Source: an uncultured Bacteroidaceae bacterium
GTDB taxonomy: Bacteria; Bacteroidota; Bacteroidia; Bacteroidales; Bacteroidaceae
DNA length: 40,508 nt
Direction: 5' to 3'
Assembly (NCBI GenBank): GCA_905234745.1
Contig: CAJOJD010000010.1
Span: forward strand, 1-40,508
The notes under the pieces are model-generated. The model was given only the letters and a program-made list of their open reading frames with translations. It had not been told where the DNA came from and made no database searches. The stretch's first letter is position 1, and each line of letters begins with the position of its first letter. A program made the translations under genes and the position numbers. This document shows positions 1,971 through 16,765 of the stretch, in pieces.

Positions 1971-3665
1971 TCATTTATAGGCATTTTCGTGAACGCCCTT
2001 TACTGCACGGCCGCTCGGATCGTTCAGTTTGCTGAAACCAGCATCCCATTTCAGGGCCTCGGCGGTAGAGCAAGCTACGCTTGGAACACTGGGAACACAC
2101 TTGGCAGCCGATGCGCTTGGGAAATGCTCCTCAAATATGCTACGGTAGTAATATTCCTCCTTGTTCATAGGTGTGTTGATGGGGAAACGCTCTGCTGCAT
2201 GAGCCATCTGCTCATCACTTACTGCAGCAGCGGTAATCTCCTTGAGTGAGTCAATCCAACTGTATCCTACTCCGTCGCTGAACTGCTCTTTCTGGCGCCA
2301 TGCAACGCTCTCGGGCAGCATATCGGCAAACGCCTCACGTACCACACGTTTCTCAATGCTCTTACCCGGGCACATCTTTTGCTCAGGGTTCAGACGCATT
2401 GCAACATCCAGGAACTCCTTGTCAAGGAAGGGAACGCGACCCTCAACACCCCAGGCTGCCAGTGACTTGTTGGCACGCAGGCAGTCATACAGATGCAATT
2501 TTGAAATCTTACGCACGGTCTCCTCATGGAATGCCTCAGCGTCGGGAGCCTTGTGGAAATAGAGATAACCTCCAAATACCTCATCGGCCCCCTCGCCGCT
2601 CAGCACCATCTTGATTCCCATGCTACGTATAACTCGGGCAAGCAGGTACATGGGAGTGCTGGCACGAACCGTGGTAACATCATATGTCTCAATGAAGTAG
2701 ATCACGTCACGTATGGCATCCAATCCCTCCTGGACTGTATAGTTAATTTCATGGTGTACTGTACCTATGTGGTCGGCAACCTCGCGGGCCTTAGCCAGAT
2801 CCGGAGCGCCCTTAAGACCTACTGCAAACGAGTGCAGACGCGGCCACCAGGCCTCCTGCTGATCGTCGGTCTCAACACGGCGTGCAGCGTTTTTCTTTGC
2901 TATGGCCGATATCACCGAGCTGTCAAGACCGCCAGACAGAAGCACTCCGTAAGGAACATCGCACATAAGCTGACGCTTGACGGCTGCCTCAAGGGCATCA
3001 TGGAGTTCCTTTATATCGGCCTTATTATCCTTCACGGCTTCATACTTGAACCAGTCACGGGTGTACCAGCGCTCAATATGACCGCTGCGGCTGCTCAGGA
3101 AATGTCCGGGCAGGAACGGCTCGTACTCAGTGCAGATACCCTCAAGGGCCTTAAGTTCACTTGCTACGCAGATATGCCCTTCCTTATCCTTGCCTATGTA
3201 AAGAGGAATAACGCCTATGGGGTCACGGGCAATCAGGTATTCGTCACGCTCTGCATCATAAAGAGCAAAGGCAAAAATACCGTTCAGACGCTCCAGCATG
3301 CGGATAAAGTCCTCCTGACTGCCACCTGCACGAACTGCATCGCGGTAAAGCGCCAGGATAACCTCACAGTCACTGCCGGTACTGAATGTGTATCGGCCCT
3401 CATACTCACGGCGTATTGCCTGATGGTTGTATATCTCACCGTTAACGGCCAGCACCTGCAGACGGTCCTCGCTGAACAGAGGCTGACCGCCCGACTGGGG
3501 ATCGACAATACTCAAACGCTCATGAGCCAGTATGGCAGAGCCTCCGCACCAGATTCCGCTCCAGTCCGGACCGCGATGACGAATCCTGCGACTCATTTCC
3601 AACGCACGCTGTCGCAACTGCTCTGACTGCTCCTTAATCCTGAAGATTGAAACTATTCCACACAT
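1971..3665 (-). CDS. asnB: Asparagine synthase (glutamine-hydrolysing), class B
   Basis: Converts aspartate, glutamine and ATP to asparagine. The start is fixed by MCGIVSIF: Cys2 becomes the N-terminal nucleophile of the class II glutamine amidotransferase domain (residues 2 to about 200, with RHRGPD and LAVNGEIYNH). The synthetase half carries the PP-loop SGGLDSS at 244-250 and GEGADEVFGGY further on. At 564 residues it is full length (about 554 in E. coli AsnB). Upstream is a leader with an Asn/Gln-rich peptide ORF and an intrinsic terminator, so expression is predicted to fall when charged Asn and Gln tRNAs are plentiful. glnN follows downstream under its own promoter. Function is very secure; the regulation is inferred. 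Confidence 0.97.
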   Translation of the reverse strand: MCGIVSIFRIKEQSEQLRQRALEMSRRIRHRGPDWSGIWCGGSAILAHERLSIVDPQSGGQPLFSEDRLQVLAVNGEIYNHQAIRREYEGRYTFSTGSDCEVILALYRDAVRAGGSQEDFIRMLERLNGIFAFALYDAERDEYLIARDPIGVIPLYIGKDKEGHICVASELKALEGICTEYEPFLPGHFLSSRSGHIERWYTRDWFKYEAVKDNKADIKELHDALEAAVKRQLMCDVPYGVLLSGGLDSSVISAIAKKNAARRVETDDQQEAWWPRLHSFAVGLKGAPDLAKAREVADHIGTVHHEINYTVQEGLDAIRDVIYFIETYDVTTVRASTPMYLLARVIRSMGIKMVLSGEGADEVFGGYLYFHKAPDAEAFHEETVRKISKLHLYDCLRANKSLAAWGVEGRVPFLDKEFLDVAMRLNPEQKMCPGKSIEKRVVREAFADMLPESVAWRQKEQFSDGVGYSWIDSLKEITAAAVSDEQMAHAAERFPINTPMNKEEYYYRSIFEEHFPSASAAKCVPSVPSVACSTAEALKWDAGFSKLNDPSGRAVKGVHENAYK

Positions 3666-3712
3666 AGTATTTTGTTTTTGTTATTTATTCCTTTCTGCCC
3701 GGCATATGGAAC

Positions 3713-3743
3713 AAAAAAAAGACTGATCAAATTGACCAGTCTT
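3713..3743 (-). terminator. Attenuator terminator in the asnB leader
   Basis: Read on the minus strand, a 10-bp stem (AAGACTGGTC with GATCAGTCTT, one G-U pair) has a 5-base loop and runs into eight U residues, ending 48 bases before the asnB start codon. Lying between promoter and structural gene, it must be read through for asnB to be made. Its 5' arm contains CTGGTCAA, complementary to the 3' end of the leader peptide ORF. Its near-copy lies in front of glnB. Confidence 0.88.
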
Positions 3744-3793
3744 TTATGTTTTGTTCTGTATATACCTGAATGATTAGCTTTCCCGCTGGCCAA
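3732..3793 (-). promoter_or_regulatory. Predicted antiterminator of the asnB leader
   Basis: On the minus strand, TTGGCCAG (3786-3793, inside the leader peptide ORF) can pair with CTGGTCAA (3732-3739, the 5' arm of the terminator), giving 8 pairs including one G-U. This excludes the terminator stem. The upstream arm begins 19 nt after the last codon of the Asn/Gln run and ends 9 nt before the stop codon, so a ribosome stalled in the run leaves it free, while one at the stop codon masks it. The structure is inferred from sequence. Confidence 0.7.
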
Positions 3794-3887
3794 AAGAAGT
3801 AACCATCCGAACCTGATTATTATTCTGGTTCTGATTCTGCTGGTTATTCTGATTATTATTGGCGGTGTATGCCAAAATTCTAGCCAT
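3774..3887 (-). CDS. Asn/Gln-rich leader peptide of asnB (37 aa)
   Basis: This small ORF lies between the predicted promoter and the terminator of the asnB leader. It encodes 37 residues starting MARILAYTA, followed by sixteen consecutive Asn/Gln codons at residues 10-25 (NNNQNNQQNQNQNNNQ, 10 Asn and 6 Gln), then VRMVTSFGQRES and TAA. The product is probably not a working protein. By analogy with his and trp leaders, the ribosome would pause in the run when charged tRNA-Asn or tRNA-Gln is scarce. The run is richer in Asn than the one before glnB, fitting the gene it precedes. The C-terminal part and its DNA are conserved in the glnB leader peptide. The initiation region has no Shine-Dalgarno sequence, as usual here. 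Translation is inferred, not shown. Confidence 0.85.
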   Translation of the reverse strand: MARILAYTANNNQNNQQNQNQNNNQVRMVTSFGQRES

Positions 3888-10919: not shown

Positions 10920-12164
10920 TCAGATGTTGTAAGCGGTTTCTCCGTGCTCGTAGATATCCAGACCTTCCTCCTCGACGCGAGCCTCAACGCGGATTCCGTG
11001 AACCTTCTTGAGGATTACGAATGTGAGCAGACCAAGTCCGAATGACCATGCGCAGGTTACCAGTGATCCAAGAGCCTCAACGCCCAGGAAGTGCCAGCCA
11101 CCACCGTAGAACAGGCCACCGTCTACTGCAAACATACCGGTCATGAGGGTACCAAGGATACCGCATACACCGTGAACCGATACGGCACCAACGGGATCAT
11201 CGATCTTGCAGATCTTATCAATCAGGGCAACTGAACCGACCATTGCGCAACCGCAAACTGCGCCGATGATTGCTGCACCACCTATTGATACAAGGTCGCA
11301 ACCTGCTGTGATACCTACCAGACCTGCCAGGATACCGTTGCACACCAGTGAAAGTGAAGGTTTGCCGAATACCAGCCATGTAAGGAACAGTGCTGCAAGT
11401 CCGCCCGTTGCGGCAGCCATGTTGGTTGTGCACATTACATGAGAGATTGCGATAGCGTTCTCAGAACCCTCAGCAGCCAGCTGTGAACCGGGGTTGAAAC
11501 CGAACCATCCGAACCAGAGGATGAATACTCCCAGAGCACCGAATGTCAGGTTGTGGCCGGGGATAGCGCGTGATTCGCCGGTCTTGGAATACTTACCGAT
11601 ACGCGGACCAAGTACCATAGCACCTGCAAGAGCAATCACACCACCGCATGAGTGAACAACTGTCGAACCTGCGAAATCATGGAAACCAAGCTCTGCGAGC
11701 CAGCCGCCGCCCCAAGTCCAGTGACCCTCGATGGGATAAATAAGTACCGAAATAATGATTGAAATAAGTACGTACATTGAGAACTTGGTGCGCTCAGCCA
11801 TACCGCCTGATACTATTGTGGCAGCAGTTGCGCAGAATACAGTCTGGAATATCAGCGTGCACTCTGCAGGAATGTTGCTGTCGCCATAGAATGACCAGTC
11901 AAAAAGGTGAAGGCCACCAATGAAACCGTTGTTTGTTCCGTGCATCAGACCGAATCCTATCATCCAGAAAAGGAATGATCCGACCATGAAATCAACGAAG
12001 TTCTTCATAAGTATGTTGGCTGTGTTCTTGGAACGGGTGAAACCTGCCTCAACCAGCGCGAATCCGGGCTGCATAAAGAACACAAGCATAGCTGCTATCA
12101 ATACCCAGACTGTATCCAGTCCGCTTATACTACTTTCACTTACTGTTGTGATAATGTCTTCCAT
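10920..12164 (-). CDS. amtB: Ammonium channel AmtB
   Basis: Inner-membrane ammonia channel of 414 residues with eleven expected membrane segments. The twin pore histidines are visible: STVVHSCGG (His171) and VSVHGVCG (His331). Further family signatures are FMQPGFALVEAGFTRSKN, GGMAERTKF, WFGWFGFNPGSQL and the cytoplasmic C-terminal region where PII binds. It follows glnB by 21 bases, the usual glnB/glnK-amtB pairing, in which PII blocks the channel when nitrogen is plentiful. The operon starts with the Asn/Gln-rich leader peptide and attenuator at 12578-12802. The porin gene lies downstream past a terminator. Family call is very secure. Confidence 0.97.
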   Translation of the reverse strand: MEDIITTVSESSISGLDTVWVLIAAMLVFFMQPGFALVEAGFTRSKNTANILMKNFVDFMVGSFLFWMIGFGLMHGTNNGFIGGLHLFDWSFYGDSNIPAECTLIFQTVFCATAATIVSGGMAERTKFSMYVLISIIISVLIYPIEGHWTWGGGWLAELGFHDFAGSTVVHSCGGVIALAGAMVLGPRIGKYSKTGESRAIPGHNLTFGALGVFILWFGWFGFNPGSQLAAEGSENAIAISHVMCTTNMAAATGGLAALFLTWLVFGKPSLSLVCNGILAGLVGITAGCDLVSIGGAAIIGAVCGCAMVGSVALIDKICKIDDPVGAVSVHGVCGILGTLMTGMFAVDGGLFYGGGWHFLGVEALGSLVTCAWSFGLGLLTFVILKKVHGIRVEARVEEEGLDIYEHGETAYNI

Positions 12165-12185: not shown

Positions 12186-12533
12186 TTACTTCTTGTCGGC
12201 CAACACTGTATCACCGTGTTCTCCGGTACGGATTGACCATGTGTCATCCACGGGACTTACAAAGATTCGTCCATCACCCACCTGGCCGGTACGGGCAGCA
12301 CCCATGATGGCGTCGATTGCGGGCTGTACGAACTGATCACGGCAGATGATTGTTATCTCAATACGTGAGATGATGTCCGTGCTGTACATTACGCCACGGT
12401 AGATTCGGTCCTGACGTGCCTGACCGATTGCGTGTACCTCGGCGTAAGAGAACCAGTTGATGTCTGCCTCAAAAAGTGCTTCCTTGACATCTTCAAACCG
12501 GGTTTTCCGGATGATTGCTTCAATTTTTTTCAT
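12186..12533 (-). CDS. glnB: Nitrogen regulatory protein PII
   Basis: Trimeric signal protein that senses 2-oxoglutarate and ATP/ADP and controls AmtB. 115 residues, starting MKKIEAIIRK as in classic PII. The T-loop (about 37-54, GQARQDRIYRGVMYSTD) is one residue shorter than in E. coli GlnB; Tyr50 aligns with the uridylylated Tyr51. The C-loop motif TGQVGDGRIFV (82-92) and the RTGEHGD tail are intact. The first structural gene of the glnB-amtB operon, it is preceded by a leader containing the Asn/Gln-rich peptide ORF and terminator. Whether it is GlnB or GlnK by function cannot be told from sequence; linkage to amtB favours the GlnK role. Confidence 0.95.
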   Translation of the reverse strand: MKKIEAIIRKTRFEDVKEALFEADINWFSYAEVHAIGQARQDRIYRGVMYSTDIISRIEITIICRDQFVQPAIDAIMGAARTGQVGDGRIFVSPVDDTWSIRTGEHGDTVLADKK

Positions 12534-12577: not shown

Positions 12578-12613
12578 AAAAAAAAAAAGACTGATCAAAA
12601 ATTGACCAGTCTT
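12578..12613 (-). terminator. Attenuator terminator in the glnB-amtB leader
   Basis: On the minus strand a perfect 10-bp stem apart from one G-U (AAGACTGGTC/GATCAGTCTT) with a 7-base loop is followed by about eleven U residues, some 45 bases before glnB. Both stem arms are identical to those of the asnB attenuator at 3713-3743. Confidence 0.9.
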
Positions 12614-12663
12614 TATATTGAATTCTCTATTTATCTACGATGTTTAGCTTACCTGCTGGTCAA
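12602..12663 (-). promoter_or_regulatory. Predicted antiterminator of the glnB leader
   Basis: TTGACCAG near the end of the leader peptide ORF (12656-12663) pairs perfectly with CTGGTCAA in the 5' arm of the terminator (12602-12609). The upstream arm starts 19 nt past the Asn/Gln core and ends 9 nt before the stop codon, exactly as in the asnB leader. There the middle A-U pair is replaced by G-U, so pairing is retained. Confidence 0.7.
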
Positions 12664-12763
12664 AAGGTATAACCATCGGAACCTGATTATTCTGGTTCTG
12701 ATTCTGCTGCTGCTGATTATTATTCAGCTGAACAGTGGTTATATTCTTAAAACCGATAAACAT
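12644..12763 (-). CDS. Asn/Gln-rich leader peptide of glnB-amtB (39 aa)
   Basis: A 39-codon ORF between the promoter and the terminator ahead of glnB. It starts MFIGFKNITTVQL, then has an unbroken run of fourteen Asn/Gln codons at residues 14-27 (NNNQQQQNQNQNNQ, 7 Asn and 7 Gln), and ends VPMVIPFDQQVS. Nearly all Gln codons are CAG; Asn uses both AAT and AAC. It is a paralogue in design of the peptide before asnB: same run, related C-terminus, same 9-nt distance from pairing arm to stop and same 30-nt gap to the terminator. The predicted role is a ribosome pausing sensor of charged tRNA-Gln and tRNA-Asn. The peptide itself may have no function. Confidence 0.85.
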   Translation of the reverse strand: MFIGFKNITTVQLNNNQQQQNQNQNNQVPMVIPFDQQVS

Positions 12764-12794
12764 AAAAATCTTCAGTTTTTCCTGATTTCTGCCG

Positions 12795-12802
12795 CAAAGG
12801 TA
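12795..12802 (-). promoter_or_regulatory. Predicted -7 box of the glnB leader promoter
   Basis: The minus strand reads TACCTTTG, a good TAnnTTTG match, about 30 bases before the leader peptide ATG. A -33 TTG lies upstream but at a spacing shorter than ideal. Confidence 0.55.
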
Positions 12803-12931
12803 CGAACACTTTTGATACAATGTTCACAAAACGGGCAGAAATTTTACTTTTTTCTATCAAATTTCCAAATATTCCAACAAATAGAAAGTATTACTTGCAA
12901 ATACGCAGCATTTTGCCCAGCGCATAGTAGA

Positions 12932-13136
12932 TTTTTTAGGGGTAAGGGTATCAGAAACCATAGACGCCCATGTCTCTGTGAACCGACGAACGAAGAGAGA
13001 GCAGAGGAAGCTAGCTTACTCTGCCGAACGAGGAGGAGGTCAAGAGCGTAGCTCTTAATGGGAGGGGCCCGCCGCGTAGCGGTGGGAGGGATAGGCCCGT
13101 AGGGCCGTAGTTTAGGATACCCTTACCCCTAAAAAA
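12932..13136. repeat. 205-bp inverted-repeat element with GTA-loop hairpins
   Basis: The ends are perfect 21-bp inverted repeats (12932-12952 and 13116-13136, TTTTTTAGGGGTAAGGGTAT and onward). Allowing one bulge, the pairing extends about 8 bp outward into the last codons of pyrG. Inside are three hairpins with the same GTA triloop: AAGAGC/GCTCTT (13042-13056), an 8-bp CCCGCCGC/GCGGTGGG stem (13068-13086) and GGCCC/GGGCC (13094-13106). A longer hairpin GCAGAG/CTCTGC (13001-13024) precedes them. No coding potential is seen. It could be a non-autonomous mobile element or a structured RNA, and it separates pyrG from the glnB leader promoter. Confidence 0.75.
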
Positions 13137-14762
<1,626 letters not shown>

Positions 14763-16617: not shown

Positions 16618-16665
16618 CTAAATAAAGGAGGAAGGCTGGTCCTGCTTGAACCAGCCTTCACTCAT
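16618..16665 (-). CDS. Possible 15-codon leader ORF of glmS
   Basis: The ORF reads MSEGWFKQDQPSSFI and stops 10 bases before the glmS start. It contains the whole leader hairpin, so translating it would open the hairpin. Two Gln codons flank an Asp. It may be a chance ORF; nothing like the Asn/Gln runs of asnB and glnB is seen. Confidence 0.25.
   Translation of the reverse strand: MSEGWFKQDQPSSFI
16631..16659 (-). promoter_or_regulatory. Hairpin in the glmS leader
   Basis: A perfect 9-bp stem (GAAGGCTGG/CCAGCCTTC) with an 11-base loop ends 23 bases before the glmS ATG. The following bases (CTCCTTTATTT) are pyrimidine-rich but not a clean U-tract, so it is a weak terminator or a translation-control hairpin. 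Confidence 0.55.
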
Positions 16666-16735
16666 ATTATCAATTTTATATTTCCAATCTCTTACTACAC
16701 ATACGCATTTCCAACAATTGGCAATGAATATGGGG

Positions 16736-16765
16736 CAAAAGTACTAATTGTATTTCAAACTGCAA
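16736..16765 (-). promoter_or_regulatory. Predicted promoter of glmS-pyrG
   Basis: The minus strand shows TTG (16763-16765), 19 bases and TACTTTTG (16736-16743), a good Bacteroidota -33/-7 match. The start point would be near 16729. Confidence 0.65.

Follow-up and report, generated by a model that had tools for sequence, protein, structure and literature searches.

The glnB-amtB operon of an uncultured Bacteroidaceae bacterium is preceded by a leader that very probably acts by ribosome-mediated transcription attenuation, sensing the charging of Gln-tRNA and Asn-tRNA. The regulation itself is inferred from the DNA sequence, and there are no expression data. With almost the same confidence we consider this reading, extended to a nitrogen regulon dispersed over several operons, to be the best explanation of the whole, function again being inferred. 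The stretch of DNA analysed comprises 40,508 nucleotides (contig CAJOJD010000010.1 of assembly GCA_905234745.1) and is called the window below.

The device is a variant of ribosome-mediated attenuation that is new in its Gln/Asn pair, its target set and its predicted pseudoknot antiterminator, and that we do not know from other attenuators; that it regulates is an inference. As far as we know, it has not been settled how Bacteroidota, in the absence of an Ntr system, regulate ammonium assimilation, and we know of no earlier attenuator that reads Gln/Asn codons. The genes by which one group of uncultured bacteria of gut and rumen takes up and uses ammonia are apparently switched on by an RNA that senses ribosomes short of glutamine and asparagine. 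If true, this would be a new kind of nitrogen control, with repeated attenuators in place of a master regulator.

The leader ahead of glnB-amtB

Read along the minus strand (12830 to 12186), a promoter is followed by the leader ORF, the terminator with its U tract, and glnB, after which comes amtB. The genes encode a PII protein (glnB, 12186-12533; Pfam PF00543, E=8e-21) and an ammonium channel (amtB, 10920-12164; PF00909, E=1e-125). The leader ORF (12644-12763) has 39 codons and a stop, with the product MFIGFKNITTVQLNNNQQQQNQNQNNQVPMVIPFDQQVS, and contains an uninterrupted run of fourteen Asn and Gln codons, seven of each (12683-12724), which are the proposed sensing codons. It is followed by an intrinsic terminator hairpin, P3 (12586-12614, AAAGACTGGTCAATTTTTGATCAGTCTTT; folding z = -3.9 vs shuffles), and a U tract of 11 T (12578-12588), whose first three residues can also form pairs with AAA in the terminator 5' arm. 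The antiterminator pairing, S2, joins TTGACCAG (12663-12656) to CTGGTCAA (12609-12602), the latter being the 5' arm of the terminator. The two strands are fully complementary, so that the perfect 8-bp pairing given in the first-pass annotation is confirmed, as are its 39-codon ORF with fourteen Asn/Gln codons and its eleven U residues. The terminator arms, AAAGACTGGTCA/TGATCAGTCTTT, were also said to be the same as those before asnB; they are indeed identical, and the loop alone differs.

A run of this kind is not expected by chance. With an Asn+Gln fraction of 7.9%, taken from the codons of 13 window genes, the probability of a 14-codon run is ~3e-16 per site. Across all six frames, the window contains only two runs of more than six such codons, and both lie inside the glnB and asnB leaders. 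Several of the features by which an attenuator is recognized are present, namely an ORF with cognate codons, an intrinsic terminator between ORF and gene, and an antiterminator that excludes the terminator.

Upstream of the ORF there is a -33 element TTTG of the Bacteroides type (12827-12830) and a -7 element TACCTTTG (12795-12802, consensus TANNTTTG). The arrangement TTTG-N24-TACCTTTG (12830-12795) we take, by its consensus, to be a Bacteroides-type promoter. The region 12578-12802 of the first-pass annotation extends from the -7 element through the end of the U tract, with the -33 element just outside. Of 29 leaders, 27 have a promoter-like TANNTTTG on their upstream side (the exceptions are L006 and L024; L018, at a contig end, was omitted from the count). 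A transcription start downstream of the terminator had been named as a case that would refute attenuation. It finds no support from the promoter consensus, since none of the 29 leaders has a TANNTTTG box between the leader stop and +150.

Two further observations concern this promoter region. The spacer (12803-12826) contains a GAACAAYGTATCAAAATAGTGC-like stretch, seen by eye also at the same place in L003-L023; it recurs before many glnB leaders and could be an operator through which a further level of control acts. An element of ~215 bp (12926-13141), lying between pyrG and the glnB promoter, has inverted ends of 32-33 bp (91% alike) and folds strongly (z -5.5). A second copy, 85% identical, is found at G000:C8:5042-5218, with three shorter partial matches elsewhere; it resembles a short non-coding element of the mobile or repeat type.

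We now turn to the proposed mechanism. The parts that can be read directly are the promoter, the short ORF with its in-frame Asn/Gln run, a hairpin P2 with the loop ACCAG(U/C)C, and a terminator 5' arm complementary to that loop. With ample Gln-tRNA and Asn-tRNA, the leading ribosome would run to the stop codon, which lies within P2 or beside it, and cover the loop strand, the terminator would form, and expression of glnB-amtB would stay low. If Gln or Asn is short, the ribosome is inferred to stall in the run with its leading edge just before P2, which could then fold. The P2 loop would capture the emerging terminator 5' arm in an H-type pseudoknot (S2), and the polymerase would read on. A further hairpin, P1, may hold polymerase and ribosome in step as a pause hairpin.

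The geometry can be examined in some detail. If the leading edge of a ribosome is taken to lie 12-14 nt ahead, then with the last Gln codon (12685-12683) in the A site this edge would end near 12672, just short of P2 (12669), and the leader stop codon (12646-12644) adjoins P2. The distance from the last run codon to the antiterminator arm has a median of 22 nt (range 9-30, n=65). For gltB leaders, 39 nt separate the arm start from the end of the stop codon (L112), and a terminating ribosome may there no longer cover the arm. The terminator is calculated to be more stable than S2 (-14.6 vs -10.6 kcal/mol), and S2 must therefore win by timing, forming first. It is important to point out that the leader lacks, in contrast to trp and his, a 1:2 hairpin of the classical kind in which the antiterminator strand would be hidden: P1 excludes the arm and P2 leaves it in its loop. 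An untranslated leader should for this reason read through.

Hairpins P1 and P2 and the pairing S2

The first-pass annotation had overlooked P1, which lies within the Asn/Gln run (12679-12698, GAACC..GGTTC), and P2 (12650-12669, TACCT/AGGTA), which carries the antiterminator strand as its loop. This position of the strand suggests an H-type pseudoknot. That the antiterminator takes pseudoknot form we regard as somewhat better than an even bet, and the role of P1 as a pause hairpin remains tentative, falling a little short of that.

The sequence of P1 varies between leaders: GAACC..GGUUC in the window, GAAUCUG/CAGGUUC before glmS and GAACUC/GGGUUC before gltB. Compared with codon shuffles, the P1 region is significant (p<0.05) in 12 of 20 leaders hand-picked from 65, with a combined p of 1e-15; the window copy alone is not (p 0.084), and for L132 and L134 the run region folds best in a form other than P1. 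The codons themselves are biased. The runs consist almost only of AAT, AAC and CAG, and AAT outnumbers AAC in them (315 to 68), the reverse of the window genes (74 and 208). By a loose test on 65 related leaders, 60 of 76 AAC codons among the first 14 codons are followed by a GGTT-like partner for P1.

For P2 the stems are UACCU-UUUGACCAGC-AGGUA in the window, CCUGCCU-AACCAGUC-GGGCAGG in G018 and CUUGUCC-UGCCGGCC-GGAUAAG in L134. Tested against shuffles, 14 of 20 representatives gave p<0.05 (combined p 7e-13), with L094 folding worse than its shuffles (p 0.61). The representatives leave out 21 of 41 distinct flanks, each within <=5 of 36 positions of a kept one. The combined p-values for both hairpins are overstated because the leaders are related.

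A covariation analysis of aligned leaders, proposed in the first-pass annotation as a check, gave a divided answer. For P1, P2 and P3 taken together, 87.4% of the cells pair vs 83.0% in shuffles, and two-sided changes occur in 43 cells vs 12.9 (0 of 500 shuffles as high). For S2 in fixed columns, 92.6% of the cells pair, but covariation is not above that of the shuffles, 411 of 500 of which reach the same level. Both the test on P1, P2 and P3 and the covariance model R2 used below rest on 31 of the 65 leaders, among them L122, which is misaligned in P2. With the register left free, the loops pair better with their own terminator than with swapped ones on average (p 0.0004). The own pairing exceeds the swapped mean in 21 of 26 leaders, and 5 of the 26 loops pair with their own terminator no better than with the average other one. 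In L134 and L153 the CCAG/CUGG of S2 has become CCGG/CCGG.

The strongest competitor is a plain two-state attenuation, in which P1 and P2 are by-products of coding constraints and the antiterminator is a linear helix of 7-8 bp between the ORF end and the terminator arm. S2 would by itself explain such a switch, and the lack of excess column covariation agrees with this, as does the window P2, which has only 5 bp and is not significant alone (p 0.23), as is the case for 6 of the 20 representatives. It is difficult to reconcile with two other results. The best fold closes around the arm, as P2, in 20 of 20 representatives despite their differing stems. The loop motif ACCAGUC, moreover, holds its place while it is read in all three frames (as TSR, NQSG and LPVG), the Asn/Gln codons remaining in frame, and some leader ORFs of g145 end just ahead of it. 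This means that the motif is conserved as RNA and the run as peptide. The linear helix is thus possible but unlikely, and the pseudoknot attenuator remains the preferred reading.

Known leaders, riboswitches and nitrogen regulators

Conservation of the P2 loop motif at the nucleotide level, together with the recurrence of P1 and P2, could also point to an RNA that binds a metabolite or a protein, such as a glutamine riboswitch or the site of an antiterminator protein, with P1/P2 as the sensor and the ORF secondary. We find this quite improbable. The Asn/Gln runs are in frame and made almost exclusively of the three codons named above, and gaps within the ORF, in 23 aligned leaders, have lengths divisible by three, the spacer after the stop being free in length. 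The pairing with the terminator, furthermore, accounts for ACCAGUC. No Rfam family, T-box, glutamine riboswitch and Bacteroid-trp included, matched the window at the gathering score. Six loci gave only sub-threshold matches (E<=1) to L20_leader, in L090, L111 and L113, which were rejected as chance (25.8-27.4 bits vs a gathering score of 58.7). In ANTAR-protein antitermination, tandem hairpins carry A1/G4 hexaloops; the P1 loop AAUAAU, judged by eye, has no G4.

The attenuator reading can be compared with systems that are better understood. The enterobacterial trp, his, leu, thr and phe leaders are the classical ribosome-mediated attenuators. The leader described here shares with them the codon-rich short ORF, the intrinsic terminator, the antiterminator that uses the terminator 5' arm, and the cognate genes downstream. 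It differs in that the codons are Asn and Gln, that the targets are PII, the ammonium channel, GOGAT, GS and amidotransferases, that the antiterminator strand is a hairpin loop with no 1:2 hairpin to hide it, and that one device serves many operons. The Bacteroid-trp leader of Rfam represents leader-peptide attenuation in Bacteroidetes, with Trp codons and trp genes. It thus shares phylum and principle with the present leader and differs in codons and genes, and it matched neither the window nor the six loci. T-box and glutamine riboswitches, which respond to tRNA charging or to glutamine and stand before nitrogen genes, have a similar input, whereas here sensing would occur via in-frame codons.

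From the literature, the LEU element of actinobacterial leuA, as far as the accessible part of the paper goes, likewise combines a leader peptide containing a codon run with a conserved pseudoknot (PMC1262725). There, base pairing links the codon run to the Shine-Dalgarno box of leuA, and the authors of that study considered a protein-binding site likely; the pseudoknot proposed here would instead compete with a terminator. In Prevotella ruminicola 23, amtB, glnK, PRU_1977, asnB, gltBD, glnN, pyrG and purN are among the ammonium-responsive genes, with fold changes of 69 for amtB, 58 for PRU_1977, 46 for glnK and 38 for asnB (PMC5552732, seen in part). This set is close to the genes behind the leaders here; the leader offers a concrete, mutable cis-element ahead of the types of gene whose ammonium response has been described in this relative. 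The portion of that paper at our disposal is inconsistent on the direction of the response, and its main text returned no match for NtrC or leader. For B. thetaiotaomicron, leader-peptide-like ORFs have been described in 5' UTRs (PMC7366714); in what was available of that source, and of PMC4833913, glutamine and asparagine gave no match. An Asn/Gln attenuator was not found in the literature search, among the matches listed.

Concerning the signal, GlnRS scored above the cut-off in all 8 genomes tested, and GatB in 0 of 8, with one weak match in G207. This indicates that Gln-tRNA charging should follow free glutamine.

The first-pass annotation had also stated that no NtrC-type regulator is seen in the window. 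The statement holds for the window only, as each of the 8 genomes contains one strong sigma-54 activator (>200 bits; other matches <=37 bits). The copy in the bacterium's own genome, the only one read, has AAA and Fis-type domains and, lacking a receiver domain, does not resemble NtrC.

Distribution of the leader and its target genes

By DNA search the leader turned up in 25 genomes out of 61; these all belong to the window's genus and usually have two copies, before glnB and asnB (a short single match in G031 was counted as no leader). GlnB is present in 22 of the 37 genomes of the genus, the bacterium's own included, and the leader stands before glnB or porin-glnB in 22 of these 22, the latter being the case in G018. 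The earlier proposal of Gln/Asn-codon attenuation of glnB-amtB thus gains comparative support, which the upstream promoter adds to, while the response to starvation is inferred. Among the 15 genomes without GlnB, a leader is found in G019, at a contig end, and in G022, where it precedes asnB; weak matches of the covariance model R1 in G001, G027 and G028 were left unread. Many genomes of the genus are incomplete, and GlnB is missing also from the near-complete G001, G027 and G030. In one genome (G017:C40:5589-5839) glnB matches as two pieces with an internal stop, and its leader (L006) looks intact.

The window itself holds two more copies. Before asnB (asparagine synthase, 1971-3665; PF00733), a second leader ORF (3774-3887, minus strand) has 16 consecutive Asn/Gln codons, and the DNA of the glnB leader matches there at 3710-3860 on the minus strand (81% identity, E=4.5e-31; 97.5 bits at 3714-3845), with the terminator from 3745 down. 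Before glmS there is a relic (16627-16758, minus strand, 38.4 bits) in which the terminator GAAGGCTGGTTC..GACCAGCCTTC is retained and no Asn/Gln ORF or antiterminator arm was seen; congeners keep both ORF and arm, the glmS leader being intact in G019 and G021. Judged by its sequence, the relic is a natural deletion allele.

That a lone terminator is tolerated before glmS is what would be expected if the leader ORF acted through translation itself, by reinitiation, Rho access or mRNA stability, and the terminator were merely a constitutive dampener. This explanation has little chance of being correct, in view of the complementarity of terminator arm and loop strand, which persists across classes, and of the U tract and upstream promoter, which fit transcription attenuation. 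The absence of any regulation, the copies being duplicated upstream DNA kept by recent descent, is hardly credible: the two window leaders, of glnB and asnB, do resemble each other, but the same core with different stems occurs before unrelated genes in four genera of the family and in one genome of another family.

For the preferred reading, attenuation at the Asn/Gln codons, the range of targets was assessed with R1 and then the broader R2, searched against 399 genomes of the family. At E<=1e-4, R2 matched 53 of the 399, which represent 6 of 30 genera. On reading the fetched loci, true leaders were found in four genera (g1, g145, g152 and g160). The matches in g144 and g158 were rejected as plain terminators, as were second matches in G000:C50, G006:C18 and G009:C71 (L240-L245, including g144 and g158). 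Not all matches were read, for example that in G263 and the weak both-strand match of L209. In 295 genomes of the order, one besides the bacterium's own passes E<=1e-6; it belongs to another family and has the leader before a type III glutamine synthetase (GSIII).

A detector run over 301 loci reported 187 places, corresponding to 75 distinct 65-nt cores. These precede glnB (32), asnB (14), glmS (9), GSIII (5), pyrG (5), porin-glnB (4), gltB (4), purF (1) and an ATP-grasp operon (1). All 75 thus stand before a glutamine-metabolism gene or, once, the ATP-grasp operon, as is further expected of an attenuator, whose target genes should be connected with the amino acid that it senses. Since a model, DNA or GlnB match was the reason for retrieving a locus, glnB has too large a share in this count. 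From the occurrence of the same device before asnB, gltB, GSIII, glmS, pyrG and purF in related species we infer a dispersed nitrogen regulon without a dedicated regulator protein. A wider hypothesis, for which we consider the chances evenly balanced, is that the nitrogen regulon of these gut Bacteroidales (PII, Amt, GS, GOGAT, AsnB, GlmS, PyrG, PurF) is run without a trans-acting Ntr regulator, by one pseudoknot attenuator copied per operon and reading Gln/Asn-tRNA charging, the gene sets of the species differing by gain and loss of the cassette.

Two further points count against the attenuation reading. Several targets consume glutamine, and their induction at low glutamine is not obvious in physiological terms. 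The leader is also missing from most relatives' glnB loci: at 80 named loci (uncultured rumen Bacteroidales, Prevotella, Bacteroides, Parabacteroides, Flavobacteriia and others, some with little upstream DNA), R2 found it at E<=6e-9 in only 5 (L130, L131, L132, L134 and L153). In L133 the R2 match is weak (E 4e-4), yet ORF, arm and terminator are readable before porin-glnB. No clear Asn/Gln leader was seen at 29 distant Bacteroidales glnB loci, a result that says little for oppositely oriented loci because one strand only was read.

The ATP-grasp case is a separate observation. In L252 (3238-5311, minus strand) the leader stands before an ATP-grasp/Alpha-E operon of unknown role, which is a candidate for a new nitrogen-linked function.
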